From Candidatus Zhuqueibacterota bacterium (GTDB taxonomy: Bacteria; Zhuqueibacterota; Zhuqueibacteria; Residuimicrobiales; Krinioviventaceae): 59,930 nt of DNA. Numbering within the stretch: the stretch's first letter is position 1; each line of letters begins with the position of its first letter. The stretch spans positions 1-59,930 of the forward strand of contig JAFGSB010000159.1 in NCBI GenBank assembly GCA_016934825.1. Reading direction: 5' to 3'. The notes under the pieces were generated by a model, which did not search any database, had not been told where the DNA came from, and was given only the letters and a program-made list of their open reading frames with translations. The translations under genes were made by a program, and so were the position numbers. Positions 15,376-23,126 of the stretch are shown in pieces.

Positions 15376-15423
15376 GACGTTTCTCCTTATTTTATATAAT
15401 ACAGGTTTTTTTCTATCTATATC

Positions 15424-15450
15424 TGACAGGCTTTATAAAAAAATGTTGCA
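15424..15450 (-). promoter_or_regulatory. ECF-type promoter of the small membrane protein gene
   Basis: On the minus strand: TGCAAC (15450-15445), 15 bases, then CTGTCA (15429-15424). Motifs and spacing match the promoter in front of the sigma gene on the other strand. The start codon lies about 50 bases further on, behind AAGGAG. Assignment to the ECF sigma is inference from the matched pair. Confidence 0.55.
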
Positions 15451-15473
15451 AATTATCTAAAAAAAAATTAATA

Positions 15474-15500
15474 TGCAACCTTAACGGTTTTTAACTGTCT
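15474..15500 (+). promoter_or_regulatory. ECF-type promoter of the sigma/anti-sigma operon
   Basis: TGCAAC (15474-15479), 15 bases, then CTGTCT followed by AAAA (15495-15504). AAC at -35 and GTC at -10 are typical of ECF-sigma promoters. The ATG at 15509 is only nine bases after the -10, so a transcript starting at the usual distance would have almost no leader. No ribosome binding site is present there, which agrees. Confidence 0.55.
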
Positions 15501-15508
15501 AAAATAAT

Positions 15509-16087
15509 ATGAATGAACATCAGCAAAAAGAGCTTGTTGATAAAATAATATCCGGCAGTTCCAGGGCTTTCAGGACTTTTATTGAAGAATATAAAAATCT
15601 GGTCGCTCATATTGTATTCAGAATGATTGATAATATTGAAGACCGTGAAGATATGTGTCAGAATATTTTTATTAAAATATACCAGAATCTGCATACTTTT
15701 AAATTTGAAAGTAAAATTTCAACATGGGTGGCAAAAATTGTCTATAATTCCTGTATCAATTACCTGGAGAAAAAAAAAGTCCCGTTATTTGAAGATATTG
15801 CAGCGGAAAATACTACGATCGACAGCCTGGCCGGAACCGTCGATATGCCGGACAGTTTAATAGAAACCGGAGAAACACATCATTTGTTGCAAACAGAAAT
15901 CGATAAACTGCCGGTTAAATACCGTACAATTCTAACACTGTACCATCTTGATGAAATGAGCTATTTGGAAATCGGTGAAATAATGGGCTGGCCGGAAGGT
16001 ACGGTTAAGAACTACCTGTTCAGGGCAAGGAAATATTTGAAAGAAAAACTTGTAGCAAAATATCAAGTTGAGGATTTATATCAATAA
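15509..16087 (+). CDS. ECF-type RNA polymerase sigma factor
   Basis: A 192-residue group 4 sigma factor. Region 2 (about 20-90) includes AFRTFIEEYKNLVAHIVFRMI, then EDMCQNIFIKIY and FKFESKISTWVAKIVYNSCINYL, which melts the -10. Region 4 (about 130-185), KLPVKYRTILTLYHLDEMSYLEIGEIMGWPEGTVKNYLFRARKYL in part, is the helix-turn-helix that reads the -35. It directs RNA polymerase to a small regulon in response to an envelope signal relayed by its anti-sigma. Its last base is the first base of the anti-sigma gene (TAATG), so the two are translationally coupled. Promoter-like sequences nearby suggest autoregulation. Confidence 0.93.
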   Translation: MNEHQQKELVDKIISGSSRAFRTFIEEYKNLVAHIVFRMIDNIEDREDMCQNIFIKIYQNLHTFKFESKISTWVAKIVYNSCINYLEKKKVPLFEDIAAENTTIDSLAGTVDMPDSLIETGETHHLLQTEIDKLPVKYRTILTLYHLDEMSYLEIGEIMGWPEGTVKNYLFRARKYLKEKLVAKYQVEDLYQ

Positions 16088-16602
16088 TGAATAAAGACGA
16101 TTTAGAAATACAGGATTACCTGGATAACAATTTATCCGGGGAAAAAAGAGAGCAATTTATTAAACGGCTGAAATCGGACCCGAATCTGCGAATCAGGTTT
16201 AAAGCCTACAAAAGAATATATAACGGCTTAAAATCCGAAAGCGGTTTTACACTCTCGCCCAAATTCACTTCGCGGGTGTTAAAGAAAACCCACATCGAAT
16301 CCCTGGGATCGGTACATTTCGAATTGTGGCACATTTTTATTGTGTTGTTTGTCATCATTATCGGTATTAATGTGACTTTTTATTATGTTGATATGACTGC
16401 CCTGGTCAACGACATGAAATTTTCACCGGATATCGATCTTAATCTACCCCAGGGAATTCTAAACAAAATAGCCGCTTTTTTCAGCAGCCTGAATTTTAAT
16501 TTCGCTCTGCCCGCTCTGGCCGTCATTATTCTGGTTGTTCTGGGCCTGCTGGATCACTTTGTTTTGAGCGGCCGGCATAAAACAGCCTCGTCCTACCGGT
16601 GA
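16087..16602 (+). CDS. Membrane-bound anti-sigma factor
   Basis: A 171-residue inner-membrane protein. The cytoplasmic N-terminus (1-72) has the acidic helical pattern of anti-sigma domains, DYLDNNLSGEKREQFIKRL; it lacks the HxxxCxxC zinc motif of the ZAS type. A membrane segment lies at about 78-100 (HIFIVLFVIIIGINVTFYYV) and a second at about 136-156 (LPALAVIILVVLGLLDHFVL). The two-helix layout would leave a short periplasmic loop of about 35 residues as the sensor. It overlaps the sigma gene by one base. The role is inferred mainly from position and topology. Confidence 0.75.
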   Translation: MNKDDLEIQDYLDNNLSGEKREQFIKRLKSDPNLRIRFKAYKRIYNGLKSESGFTLSPKFTSRVLKKTHIESLGSVHFELWHIFIVLFVIIIGINVTFYYVDMTALVNDMKFSPDIDLNLPQGILNKIAAFFSSLNFNFALPALAVIILVVLGLLDHFVLSGRHKTASSYR

Positions 16603-16916: not shown

Positions 16917-17933
16917 CTACTTTGAAAATGTCATTTTTTTAACCTGTGTAAATATTCCGGCCTCAATCTTGTAAAAATAAATTCCCGAGGACACGGGGAT
17001 TCCCGAATCCGATAGCCCGTTCCAGGTTATCGAATAACTGCCGGCTCCTTTTTCCTCGTTCACCAATTCGCGGACAACTCTGCCAAGCGCATTGTAAATG
17101 ACCAGCTTAACATGCCTGTCCTTAGGTAATTGATAATTGATGGTTGTTTCGGGATTGAATGGATTTGGAAAATTTTGGGATAATTCGTAACGTTCAGGAA
17201 TATGATGGGAATCTACATAAACTGTTAACGGTTTGGAGAACTCGTGACCTCCGTTCCAATCCACCGCCTGGATTTTATATATATAAGTATTACCGAATTC
17301 CACACTATTGTCCTGGAAAGTATGAATAAAATCTTTGCCGGCGCTGCTGGGATGGAAAATCGTCGTTTTATTTATTTTAACGAATTCCCAGTCCGACTCT
17401 TCCCTTCGAAAAATATTAAAACCCAGGTTGAAGGATGTTTTTTCCAGAGCCCAAAGCAGTTCAACGGTACCGTTGTTCACATTTGCGGTAAACTGAACCA
17501 TTTCTCCCATTAACGGTATTCCTTCCTGACCCAGTTGCTGCCACATAATACCGTCCAGGGTACCTTTTATAACACTGCGCTCACCGTGGTAAATGCCGCC
17601 GCTTATATTTTCAATTTCAATTACAATTTCATCCCCGATAGAGGCTGTTGTATCGGTAACATCGTCTCGATTTGGATAAAATCCCCATTGTGTATTAATA
17701 TCGTAATTCCAGCTATTTTTTACATTCACCGATTCTATGTAATCTGCAGGATTCTTTTTTAAATAAGCGCGAACCGACAGATCGCCCGATGAAGGGACGG
17801 AACCATCCGAATTATATATATACATCCAAACATTTTTCGATACCTGAGCATTACTGATGCCGCTAAATAACAACCCCGCTAACAGGATTGTTAATACTAA
17901 AGTTTTACCTGATTTAATATAATATGCAAACAT
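16917..17933 (-). CDS. Secreted protein with fibronectin-like region and type IX-like sorting tail
   Basis: A 338-residue exported protein. A signal peptide (about 1-29) ends before QVSKNVWMYIYN. Residues 30-140 form a domain I do not recognise. About 145-245 resembles a fibronectin type III-like or similar sandwich (VELLWALEKTSFNLGFNIFR to YIYKIQAVDWNGG). The last about 85 residues form the sorting tail, with LSQNFPNPFNPETTINY, a GRVVRELV block, SGIYFYKI and a terminal KKMTFSK. Such tails direct secretion through a type IX-like pathway and surface attachment. No enzyme motif is visible, so a structural or binding role is likely. It is a single gene with its own terminator. Confidence 0.82.
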   Translation of the reverse strand: MFAYYIKSGKTLVLTILLAGLLFSGISNAQVSKNVWMYIYNSDGSVPSSGDLSVRAYLKKNPADYIESVNVKNSWNYDINTQWGFYPNRDDVTDTTASIGDEIVIEIENISGGIYHGERSVIKGTLDGIMWQQLGQEGIPLMGEMVQFTANVNNGTVELLWALEKTSFNLGFNIFRREESDWEFVKINKTTIFHPSSAGKDFIHTFQDNSVEFGNTYIYKIQAVDWNGGHEFSKPLTVYVDSHHIPERYELSQNFPNPFNPETTINYQLPKDRHVKLVIYNALGRVVRELVNEEKGAGSYSITWNGLSDSGIPVSSGIYFYKIEAGIFTQVKKMTFSK

Positions 17934-18406: not shown

Positions 18407-21400
18407 CTAAAATTCGCCTCCGGAAATAACATTTACAAGGTAAGAATAACCTGGCTGAGTTGTAAAGTTTGTACCCTGCAAAAAAGGAGGCAAATGCGGA
18501 GCAAAGCTGACCCAGCGCTGGTTTTGTGTATCCCAATATGATAAACCATTGACCGTATTCTCCCCCAGTTTCGCCTCGATGGCCGCCGCCAATTCACTCG
18601 CGTTGGTTATTGAATACTTGTCCAGGTCCAGCGCAATTACATTATATCCCTGTTGCAGTGTATAACATAATTCCTGTTTTTCTCCACTTAGGGTCCATGT
18701 TCCGCTAACCGTAGTATTCATAAGAACCGGTAAACCGCAAGGTATGGCAAAATCTGTTCCCTGTAAAAATGGCGGTAAATGCGGGGCAAAACTGATCCAG
18801 CGCTGCAGTGAGGCATCCCAATATGAGAGACCGTTTACAGTATTTTCTCCCAACTGGCTTTCAATTTCGGCGGCTAGTTCACTGGCTTTGGTTATCGCTT
18901 CATTCAGCAACGGAACCGCAATTGTACAATATCCAATAGGAAGAGTATAATCGATTGTCTGAACACGCTTTTGACCGGGAATAAAGTTCAAATCATTGGT
19001 AATCAAAATCTGGTCCAGTTTGGTTCCGTCCTCACGTGTTCTTATTCTGAGAGTATAAGTTCCGGGAGATAAGATAAACTCAACCGGATCGATCTCCGGT
19101 TGTTCCCATGTCCCGATGCCCCGGTCGGTAATCTGGTCCCATGTCCAGACACTTGTATATCCTTCGTACGAAACATCCCAAATACGTTCATTTACATTGT
19201 TTATCGAATAAAAGAAAGAGTTTTCAGTGAGTCCCGAGGCAATAGTACGGCCCCAGATATAATAAATATCATCAAAGGGCACTGTGAATGATATATCGGC
19301 ATAACCCTGATTATCGCCGATACCATTCGGTGCATGGATGTACTGGCCACCCGACGCTTCGGAATCCATCGCTACCTGCATCGGAGAAGTGATTGTCCCG
19401 GATTCGGCTTCAATATACAAATAGATATTTTCGGATGGCATTGCTGTAGTAAAGTGTAAAACATAGGCATCCCCACCGGTTCCATCAGCGTTTCCATCCA
19501 GGGGATTCCCGGCTAAATCAGTTGCTGAACCTGAAATGGTTACAGTATAGGCCTGGGATCCCTGAAGACTGGACAGGGGGGTAATGACCAAAGTATTACC
19601 ATTCCAACCAAAAGAAACATTCGCAGACGGGGACAATGATACCGCTGATTCCACACTGCCCGTATTCATAGTTTCGTTAAATGTGATGGAGATGGGTGAA
19701 TCGACATTTATATATTTTGACTGGTCGGCAGGATTTGTAGTAATGACCATAGGGGAAAATTCATCCTGCAATTGTTCGGTACCTTCAGTGCTGGTAATTA
19801 AACCGTTTGCATCCATAATGGCGGTACCCGGAATAAGAAAGGAAACCGGCCCGGGATATGAACCGGGTGGGAAATATTTCATATCAACTGAACCGCCGTT
19901 GTAATTAAAACCGGGTTCGTCATCGGTTACAATTCTGTTACCTCCGGCGCTTTTTATTTTGTAACCCCATTTCCAACCGTTGCCCCAGGTTACAATCATC
20001 GTTTTACCGGTCAACTCCCCGGTACCGGGCAGGTTCGTATCAACAATAAAACTGTTATCACTGTCGCCATTTTCACGTCGATTGACCCGATTGACATAAC
20101 CCCGGTACGAAAAATCACCCTTTTGTGAAGAAATCGAACGACTGCCATAAGTAAGTGATTCACCTTGTGTGAGTTGCATCCAGATCACATTGTTGTTTTT
20201 GACCCGCACATGCGCGAAACGTCCTTTTACTGTAAAATTTGTCACGCCCTGGATCTTGTGTGCCGGGTAGTTCGGACCTTCATCAAGTGTGTGGATAACA
20301 TAATCCACTGTGTTATCATCAAGATTGATTTTCATCCCGACTGCCGTTCCCGGGTCCCCCTCGAATTGTATTGCTTCTATGGATTGAATATGCGGGGAAC
20401 CTGTATATGTTTCATGTACTGCCAAAAATTTTTCATTATCGGAAGTACTGGCCTGGCGTCGCACGACAATATAATCCTGGTCACTTGTAGCATTTTCAAC
20501 AGATTGAATGCCCCGCCCTTTATAGATTGTTGTATTATCCCGCGCCAACATGGAAAATCTGTTGATTACGCCGTTATAATTGAATTCACCATACCAGCTA
20601 TTATTGGTTGTGGCCCTTTGTTGAAAATTGATTCTCCCAAACGATCCCGATGTACTGCTCATACTTAAATTTGTCGATGCCTGATAGGGCGGATGTACGG
20701 GTGCAATTGTTGAAACATGACCGCCATGCAAGGCCCAGTCATACTGAGAGCCGCCTCTGAGACGGAAAAAATCGACAAGATATACATCGTTATTTGCAAT
20801 ATTGACAAGGGCAAGCATTCTCTGGTACTGATTAACGCCCAAATGGTCATAGGCATTTTTGGCATCGACTTCTACAATCTGAATATCCTTGTTACCCTGA
20901 TATCCCGGTTCGAACAGGAGAACGTTGTTGTGTATATTGGTTTCCGTATACGGAATTGCCACGTTTCGCGGATAACCGTCTTGACGCCCTTCATCCGGGA
21001 TATATGGGGTGCTGGTATAATTTGTCCAGTATTTATATTTCTGTTCGCTGCCATTCACAACTACCAGGTTCTGATTTAAAGTTGAAGCGTTCCATTCTCG
21101 ATCCATGTAACTGTAACTGGTTCCGCCGAGCACCTCCTCACCTTTGTTGTAATAAATGAGGTGTAAGGCATCTTTATGGACGTGGATTACCGAATGACTG
21201 AAATCCAGCCGGACCTGTGTCTGGGAAGGACCGCTGCCGTTTGTGAGTGCGGCGTGTCCTACTCCATACATCAATAATGAATTATCTAATTGATTTTTAG
21301 AGACTTTTCTGTTTGCTCCCGTTGGGAATGACTGGGTTTCATTCATTATCGGCCAGAGTTTATCAGGTAATGCGGTATCATACAAAAGCGTCGTCATTCT

Positions 21401-22270
21401 TTCATACATTGGTTGATAGGCTTTATCGAAATCGAAATTATCAATACGGGCTGTATCCCATATATTATCATACGGTACATGTTGAAAATCCGGGGGATCA
21501 GAATACCCGTCGAGATAATATTTGTATTCGGGTTTCATCATATGCGGAACCACAATCGACATGTAATCATAATTTGCTCCATACCAGTATCCGTCGGGTC
21601 CGTAACATTCGTGAATCATTTTATTGTAATACCAGTAACCCAGGTGAACAAGTTCGGGATCTTCCAGCACACGACCGAAAATAATCTGACCCAGGGGGCG
21701 GGTTCCCGCCATATTGTACATATATAACAAATATCCCATATCTACTTTGACGACATATTTAAGAAAATCATAAATTTTCGTTTCGGTGCCCGAATCGAAA
21801 GAATCATATACATTGCTGTACCGGGTCATATCAAAAGCCTGGGCCAAATGTCGGGCCTTGTAACCTAAATCAAAATGAAACCAGTCAAGCATGCCCCACA
21901 TTGAAAATCCTCTGGCGGTTCCATAGTCCAGGGGCCATTCAGGGAACACATCGGCATAACGATCCAGCAGAACGGTAACCTTTCGCGCGTATTCGATATC
22001 TTTGGTACCCTGGTATAATAAACCAAGCCCATAAACGTTATGAACCATTTCAGTATTGTTTGTATTGGCTTTTCCCGATTCGTCCAGCAGGTTGCGTAAT
22101 TCCGAATCAGACATATTGATGTATGTACTTAGCGCCGTCCGTAACGAATCCACATTTATATTATTCGGCACCCAAACCGGTTCCGTATTGGCATGCACGA
22201 TTGAAGTAAATATTAAAACAAGAAATATAAAGTAAATATATTTATGATAATACTTCCCAAAGTTCCGCAT
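18407..22270 (-). CDS. Large secreted heparinase II/III-like polysaccharide lyase
   Basis: A 1287-residue exported protein from the ATG that follows AAGGAG. Order: signal peptide (about 1-28); alpha-helical toroid (about 30-340); heparinase II/III-type beta-sheet domain (about 350-560), with HKDALHLIYYNKGEEVLGG and WNASTLNQNLVVVNG; further sandwich modules (about 560-810); a bacterial Ig-like Big_5-type domain (about 815-920, ITTNPADQSKYINVDSP); a CBM-like sandwich (about 930-1085, IEAESGTITSP); and two tandem C-terminal units of about 90 residues sharing GENTVNGLSYWD, FAPHLPPFLQGT and ASELAA. The enzyme would cleave uronate-containing polysaccharides by beta-elimination. The usual YPNPFN sorting tail is absent. 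Exact substrate unknown. It is a single gene with its own terminator. Confidence 0.82.
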   Translation of the reverse strand: MRNFGKYYHKYIYFIFLVLIFTSIVHANTEPVWVPNNINVDSLRTALSTYINMSDSELRNLLDESGKANTNNTEMVHNVYGLGLLYQGTKDIEYARKVTVLLDRYADVFPEWPLDYGTARGFSMWGMLDWFHFDLGYKARHLAQAFDMTRYSNVYDSFDSGTETKIYDFLKYVVKVDMGYLLYMYNMAGTRPLGQIIFGRVLEDPELVHLGYWYYNKMIHECYGPDGYWYGANYDYMSIVVPHMMKPEYKYYLDGYSDPPDFQHVPYDNIWDTARIDNFDFDKAYQPMYERMTTLLYDTALPDKLWPIMNETQSFPTGANRKVSKNQLDNSLLMYGVGHAALTNGSGPSQTQVRLDFSHSVIHVHKDALHLIYYNKGEEVLGGTSYSYMDREWNASTLNQNLVVVNGSEQKYKYWTNYTSTPYIPDEGRQDGYPRNVAIPYTETNIHNNVLLFEPGYQGNKDIQIVEVDAKNAYDHLGVNQYQRMLALVNIANNDVYLVDFFRLRGGSQYDWALHGGHVSTIAPVHPPYQASTNLSMSSTSGSFGRINFQQRATTNNSWYGEFNYNGVINRFSMLARDNTTIYKGRGIQSVENATSDQDYIVVRRQASTSDNEKFLAVHETYTGSPHIQSIEAIQFEGDPGTAVGMKINLDDNTVDYVIHTLDEGPNYPAHKIQGVTNFTVKGRFAHVRVKNNNVIWMQLTQGESLTYGSRSISSQKGDFSYRGYVNRVNRRENGDSDNSFIVDTNLPGTGELTGKTMIVTWGNGWKWGYKIKSAGGNRIVTDDEPGFNYNGGSVDMKYFPPGSYPGPVSFLIPGTAIMDANGLITSTEGTEQLQDEFSPMVITTNPADQSKYINVDSPISITFNETMNTGSVESAVSLSPSANVSFGWNGNTLVITPLSSLQGSQAYTVTISGSATDLAGNPLDGNADGTGGDAYVLHFTTAMPSENIYLYIEAESGTITSPMQVAMDSEASGGQYIHAPNGIGDNQGYADISFTVPFDDIYYIWGRTIASGLTENSFFYSINNVNERIWDVSYEGYTSVWTWDQITDRGIGTWEQPEIDPVEFILSPGTYTLRIRTREDGTKLDQILITNDLNFIPGQKRVQTIDYTLPIGYCTIAVPLLNEAITKASELAAEIESQLGENTVNGLSYWDASLQRWISFAPHLPPFLQGTDFAIPCGLPVLMNTTVSGTWTLSGEKQELCYTLQQGYNVIALDLDKYSITNASELAAAIEAKLGENTVNGLSYWDTQNQRWVSFAPHLPPFLQGTNFTTQPGYSYLVNVISGGEF

Positions 22271-23126
22271 TATTTTACTCCTTATTAATATTATTATACA
22301 AAAATGTGACAATTTTGTAACAAATTACATAAACTGTTGTATTAATGTCCCAAAATGTAATTTATATAAAATGTTAATAAATTTAACGAATACATCAAGC
22401 AATTAATTTTATTGATTTTACACATTTTAACTCTTCTTTTCTGCTTATTTTGTCTTATTAAATTCAAATTCTATGCCACTTAATTTGAGGAATCTGGAGT
22501 TATTTAGTCACTATCTGCGCATATTAAACAATATATGAACAAATAGTAATAGAATTTTAAAATTTTTTAGAAAAAATTAAAATAAATTATTTAAGTAATT
22601 ATACATTTTTGATAATGTTACATCCGGTGGTCGGAAACCAGGGCCTACGTAAATGAGTCTCTAAAAATAAATTTTGTTAAAACATTTACCGGATTAATGA
22701 TTTAATTTCAAATTATTTTCAAAATATCCAATTGTGAATTATTTTAAATCCCGCACAACCCGCTATTTTTTCTGCGTAATGATCTGATGATCATCAAGGA
22801 TCACAGAAAAGAATCTATAAAAAGGATATAACATTATATACCAAAAATCGTATGGTTTACGTAGAATTTTTCTTATATTAGCACGTGAATGTTCTATTTT
22901 GAAAAAGCGGCTTTTGGCTCTGTGGAGATTGTGTGTACCCGGCAGTGTAAAGCGTAGCGTATTTTTAATATCATATGAATATATTGTGTCTGGTATTATA
23001 TTGTTTAACCCTGATATTTTTCCTGTAATTTATGGTAAGTTCTTTAATTTCTCCTTTAAAAAATTTATAAATTGTACTACATTTTTTCCTTTTCAACCGG
23101 GAATGAATAATTTAATTTTTTATTAA
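22271..23126. other. Long AT-rich intergenic region between divergent genes
   Basis: About 850 bases with very high AT content. A 75-codon open frame at 22899-23126 lacks a domain and a ribosome binding site and is not called. I see no repeat element or RNA gene. It must hold the promoters of the lyase gene and possibly of the SGNH hydrolase gene. Confidence 0.4.

Follow-up and report, generated by a model that had tools for sequence, protein, structure and literature searches.

The 59,930-base stretch of DNA analysed here (the window) carries a gene for a stress-type ECF sigma factor and, diverging from it across a 133-bp intergenic region, a gene for a small DUF6249 membrane protein. This arrangement raises the question of whether a single sigma factor drives both itself and its neighbour. 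An earlier note on this DNA had proposed as much from two mirror-image elements, TGCAAC-15 bases-CTGTCT before the sigma gene and TGCAAC-15 bases-CTGTCA before the DUF6249 gene, lying 23 bases apart.

The proposed promoter pair and the genes around it

Position, hexamers and sixth bases of both elements were as proposed. A pattern search of the window for TGCAAC-N15-CTGTC returned exactly two matches, TGCAACCTTAACGGTTTTTAACTGTC on the plus strand and TGCAACATTTTTTTATAAAGCCTGTC on the minus strand (Table 1), whose -35 ends are separated by 23 bp and whose -10 elements have T and A, respectively, as the sixth base. Dinucleotide shuffles of the window contained 0.01 matches on average, and none of 100 contained two; when the intergenic region was shuffled 200,000 times, the plus site was produced once and the pair never. 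Across the 5.39-Mb genome, TGCAAC-N14-16-CTGTC has five matches and the N15 form three, the third of these (C89:31955-31980) lying within a GntR-type coding sequence. Both -35 elements contain the AAC motif characteristic of ECF promoters, as do those of relatives. The CGT motif of the -10, the hallmark of an early ECF subset, is absent from these sites, where the -10 core is GTC; according to a review on ECF sigma factors, CGT in the -10 is no longer counted as a rule.

Table 1. Features of the sigma/DUF6249 locus in the window
Feature	Position	Strand	Basis
DUF6249 small membrane protein gene, 125 aa	14998..15375	-	Pfam PF19762, E=2.9e-12
Shine-Dalgarno AGGAG of the DUF6249 gene	15383-15387	-	sequence read directly
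Putative ECF-type promoter for DUF6249	15425..15450	-	-35 TGCAAC, N15, CTGTC; predicted +1 near 15415
Putative ECF-type promoter for the sigma gene	15474..15499	+	-35 TGCAAC, N15, CTGTC; predicted +1 at 15509
TAA stop	15500..15502	+	immediately 3' of the -10 core, in the reading frame of the sigma gene
ECF sigma factor, 192 aa	15509..16087	+	Pfam Sigma70_r2 1.8e-13, Sigma70_r4_2 3.2e-18
Predicted membrane anti-sigma factor, 171 aa	16087..16602	+	start overlaps sigma stop codon (TAATG)

The sigma factor has Sigma70_r2 at 24-90, Sigma70_r4_2 at 126-177 and no other significant Pfam domain, which is the composition of a Group IV factor, and it scores 107.5 bits on TIGR02937 (cut-off 42.9). Its divergent neighbour belongs to DUF6249, scoring 46.9 bits against a PF19762 gathering cut-off of 33 bits. 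An AlphaFold2 model of this protein (mean pLDDT 85.9) has three long predicted helices, at 4-31, 53-76 and 85-124; a fold search with the model against solved structures gave no meaningful match (best E 0.99), and we found no relevant literature on DUF6249 in the library searched.

We read the gene that overlaps the end of the sigma gene as encoding a membrane anti-sigma factor of the RsiW/RseA type, a prediction that draws on its orthologues and on its modelled structure. A family search with the product itself gave no match. Its orthologues have HLxDxxIQxYLD...HLxxCxxC in common; zf-HC2 is matched by 15 of 42 members, and HxxxCxxC is present in 38 of 49 and absent from 11, which are spread across several lineages. 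The top structural match of the model was RsiW bound to SigW (5wuq; prob 0.91, E 0.35), followed by RseA, RslA and MucA; the E-values are weak, and nearly all of the matches are anti-sigma factors. The gene overlap, the zf-HC2 domain of the orthologues and the RsiW/RseA-like predicted fold together fit the co-transcribed cognate anti-sigma factor expected of an ECF locus. The zinc motif HxxxCxxC has been lost from the window's copy and from that of its nearest relative (G001). Farther along, two minus-strand genes (16917-17933 and 18407-22312) encode products that appear to be secreted; one has a sorting-like domain at its C-terminus, and the other, 1301 aa long, has repeated C-terminal segments.

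We placed transcription starts by setting the C of GTC at -10, after E. coli sigmaE, which likewise requires C at that position (PMC8103513). The sigma ORF begins 9 nt past this C, and the predicted plus-strand start coincides with the A of the sigma ATG. A longer sigma N-terminus is impossible because of the in-frame TAA, with no start codon between it and the ATG. We infer that the sigma mRNA in the window is leaderless, both in its start site and in its translation. In 33 of 51 loci the sigma start lies 7-13 nt past GTC, the distribution peaking at 9 and 12, so leaderless or near-leaderless sigma mRNA is predicted through much of the group; leaders are longer in the remaining loci, and some of these include a Shine-Dalgarno sequence. 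For DUF6249 the predicted leader is about 40 nt and carries AGGAG. The coincidence of the sigma start with the predicted +1, like the assignment of the downstream gene to the anti-sigma factors, goes beyond the earlier note; the sigma mRNA, if leaderless as predicted, would be a simple oddity that lends itself to testing.

Conservation of the paired elements

Sigma orthologues, taken at E <= 1e-42, are present in 44 of 82 genomes covered for the phylum. Together with public contigs and family f11, these genomes yielded 59 loci; upstream of nearly all of the sigma genes lies a divergent DUF6249 gene. The promoter pair was recognised in 48 of 57 non-redundant loci, and the plus site was not recognisable in a few (G011, Dive96, DeMMO3, CSMAG2033). 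ECF polymerases need a rigid spacer (PMC6411747), and we measured spacing independently of the -10 by taking TG[CA]AAC anywhere in the sigma/DUF6249 intergenic regions and recording the distance to GTC. On the sigma side, 41 of 53 cases had GTC at 17 nt, and on the DUF6249 side 46 of 59 did; a distance of 18 nt occurred five times on each side, and every other distance from 8 to 29 at most five times. The resulting consensus, TGCAAC-[AC]TTTT...CTGTC[TA][AG]AT, has an information content of 28.2 bits for minus sites and 27.0 bits for plus sites. The earlier note had anticipated that these elements would define the promoter of this ECF group, and this consensus, with its rigid spacing across relatives, supplies such a definition.

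Intergenic regions are mostly short (131-200 bp) and autoregulation alone is the ECF norm, so conservation might merely follow from inheritance of a short region with its gene pair, in which case the sigma promoter alone would be functional and the DUF6249 site a relic. We regard this as very improbable, given that minus sites are conserved at least as well as plus sites and hold their spacing at 30-60% protein identity. They also persist where DUF6249 has been relocated, both in G029, where the gene lies about 2 kb away and the element is retained, and in three Bacteroidota genomes (L050, L051, L052). In the latter, the sigma gene, a zinc-type anti-sigma gene and a DUF6249-like gene all run in one direction, and the last of these is preceded by a TGCAAC...CTGTCTAA of its own. 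Cultured Bacteroidota that carry the module include Agriterribacter humi and Chitinophaga alhagiae.

The same loci bear on a second alternative, in which the mirrored elements, instead of being two promoters, form an inverted repeat to which a dimeric regulator binds. In the window, TTGCA and TGCAA arms do stand opposed across 23 bp. Among the loci, however, the distance between arms ranges from 16 to over 400 bp, each arm is coupled on its outer side to its own GTC at 17 nt, and the collinear Bacteroidota copies largely refute the idea, which we consider scarcely credible. Because the collinear Bacteroidota and the moved G029 gene retain the element, what selection keeps is the promoter copies and not their mirror geometry. 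This refines the earlier note: the pair of elements is conserved, and its mirror-image layout is inessential.

The two elements also change together. In f11 both sides have TGAAAC, a spacing of 18 and CCGGTC; in Flavobacteriales, the ECF sigma gene from which DUF6249 diverges is more distant, and TGTAAC stands on both sides, with GTC at 17-18 nt. On the evidence of these sequences, the pairing of sigma and DUF6249 promoters is kept across bacterial phyla. We found no literature linking the motif with ECF factors of Bacteroidetes. Two public contigs labelled Deltaproteobacteria (L041) and Actinomycetota (L037) have sigma loci almost identical to those of a Calditrichaceae contig or of the window's family, and are probably mis-binned or mislabelled.

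At a finer scale, whether T or G precedes GTC on one side is associated with the base at that position on the other (29/4/4/10, p=1.3e-4). We do not claim this covariation as proof of a shared sigma factor, because relatedness accounts for too much of the association: the tree offers only 2-5 independent well-supported contrasts. Differences in sigma residues that track the base were observed and are confounded by relatedness in the same way. Separately, tandem DUF6249 genes, two in number, adjoin the sigma gene in G046 (C206:12704-13534) and G011 (C231:369-989); in G046 a second site precedes the nearer copy of the pair.

The probable sigma factor for the sites and its predicted regulon

Among 60 genomes, 31 have both the sigma orthologue and DUF6249, 2 the sigma alone, 5 DUF6249 alone and 22 neither (Fisher p=2e-9, a statistic that ignores relatedness). 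Seven genomes are exceptions. Two fall at contig ends (G007, G017); in a third (G048) the sigma gene is truncated by the contig, despite which the promoter pair is present; and the other four belong to f11, where a different sigma gene stands beside DUF6249.

A promoter profile built from 38 sites, the window's own included, ranked the mirror sites first and second in their own genome (E 6e-5 and 0.009), with the next match at 0.57; this top rank is partly by construction, because the profile includes them. That circularity leaves unaffected the absence of strong sites from four family members without the sigma gene, in which the best match had E 0.55. Relatives without the sigma gene are also without DUF6249 and without a strong site.

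The window's genome has about 19 ECF-like candidates, and an AAC-type -35 is often common to ECF sigmas, so these might be real ECF promoters read mainly by a different ECF sigma, with DUF6249 and the sigma gene both targets of a third regulator. Against this, the strong sites disappear with the sigma gene in G003, G004, G006 and G008, genomes that retain 13-25 ECF-like candidates each, and where the adjacent sigma differs from one lineage to another, the element differs with it. We therefore judge this alternative improbable. Comparison of the sequences shows that the two elements are present and conserved, that each keeps a rigid spacing, and that they co-occur and have changed in parallel; from this we infer that both are functional promoters, read by the sigma factor encoded at 15509-16087. 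The central proposal of the earlier note, one sigma factor driving itself and its neighbour, is strongly supported by the conserved pairs, the co-occurrence and the parallel change on both sides; expression of DUF6249 is very probably turned on along with that of the sigma factor.

The earlier note had also placed the membrane protein in the regulon of this sigma factor and suggested a whole-genome scan and a comparison of the same intergenic region in related genomes. Both lent it support: the paired elements proved to be conserved and to co-occur with the sigma/DUF6249 pair, and the scan found two strong sites, both at the sigma/DUF6249 locus. With only these two strong sites in the window's genome, the high-scoring core regulon consists of sigma, anti-sigma and DUF6249, and the predicted regulon there is essentially limited to the locus; the scan scores the best 150 first-look candidates per genome, and weak promoters may be missed. 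Over all 82 genomes the strict pattern has 48 matches, 35 of them at the sigma/DUF6249 locus and 13 at other places, against 9 for the reversed pattern used as a control. A candidate third member in the window's family (sites in G002 and G007, E 0.03-0.08) was rejected, as GTC is absent.

Envelope genes seem to have been added to the core regulon in some relatives. In f10, at L177 (G031), L215 (G042), L179 and L214, extra promoter-like sites precede an FtsX-type permease, a serine-hydrolase-like protein and a DUF4097-like protein. The site before the last of these, whose name comes from reading its sequence and not from a family search, is shared by G031 and G042 and occurs in both genera. This family possibly has a larger, lineage-specific regulon.

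A predicted local loop and its relation to known systems

We have high confidence that the ECF sigma factor of the locus recognises both sites as its promoters; with its anti-sigma factor and DUF6249, it would form a local loop. In the circuit that we propose, a signal, most likely from the envelope, would inactivate the membrane anti-sigma factor (16087-16602). The freed sigma factor would then drive its own operon rightwards and DUF6249 leftwards, and the DUF6249 protein would enter the membrane. The loop would be local because the genome has just two strong target sites: the sigma factor would amplify its own expression, that of its inhibitor and that of a single small membrane protein with three helices. 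We suggest that DUF6249 may work in or at the membrane, either as what the response puts out or by partnering the anti-sigma factor. A fuller reading, in which DUF6249 is a YhdK-like membrane co-regulator of a nearly closed, self-limiting loop with leaderless sigma mRNA, in a module spread across several phyla, we offer tentatively and think rather unlikely as a whole; the likeness to YhdK lies in the membrane helices and the predicted co-regulation. As judged from sequence, the locus is of the ordinary autoregulated ECF type, unusually well conserved and, in the window's genome, unusually small.

These results provide a usable promoter definition for an ECF group that occurs in much of a phylum so far little studied and has relatives in Bacteroidota. 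They also connect DUF6249, a domain of unknown function, with one particular regulatory circuit. As the two promoter copies have drifted in parallel, they supply natural pairings of sigma factor and promoter from which ECF specificity might be decoded.

Like Bacillus subtilis SigW-RsiW and E. coli RpoE-RseA, the locus combines a Group IV sigma factor with regions 2 and 4 and AAC in the -35 with a predicted co-transcribed membrane anti-sigma factor, whose zinc-type N-terminal domain is seen here in orthologues. The sigma factor has SigW as its best NCBIfam relative (132 bits), and the anti-sigma factor is closest to RsiW in its predicted fold. The window's sigma factor falls below the curated SigW equivalog cut-off of 209 bits (NF007223). 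The window also differs from both systems in its -10 CTGTC, in having only two strong sites in its genome, in a dedicated partner, DUF6249, that has a promoter copy to itself, in the predicted leaderless sigma mRNA and in the loss of HxxxCxxC from its anti-sigma factor. In B. subtilis SigM-YhdL-YhdK, full anti-SigM activity requires YhdK, a second membrane protein (PMC6827917). Like that system, the window would have an autoregulated ECF locus with an anti-sigma factor and a second membrane protein under the same sigma; YhdK, however, is encoded in the sigM operon, whereas DUF6249 has its own promoter, and SigM has 69 listed regulon genes. YhdK serves as the closest working analogy for DUF6249, and not as a demonstrated relative.
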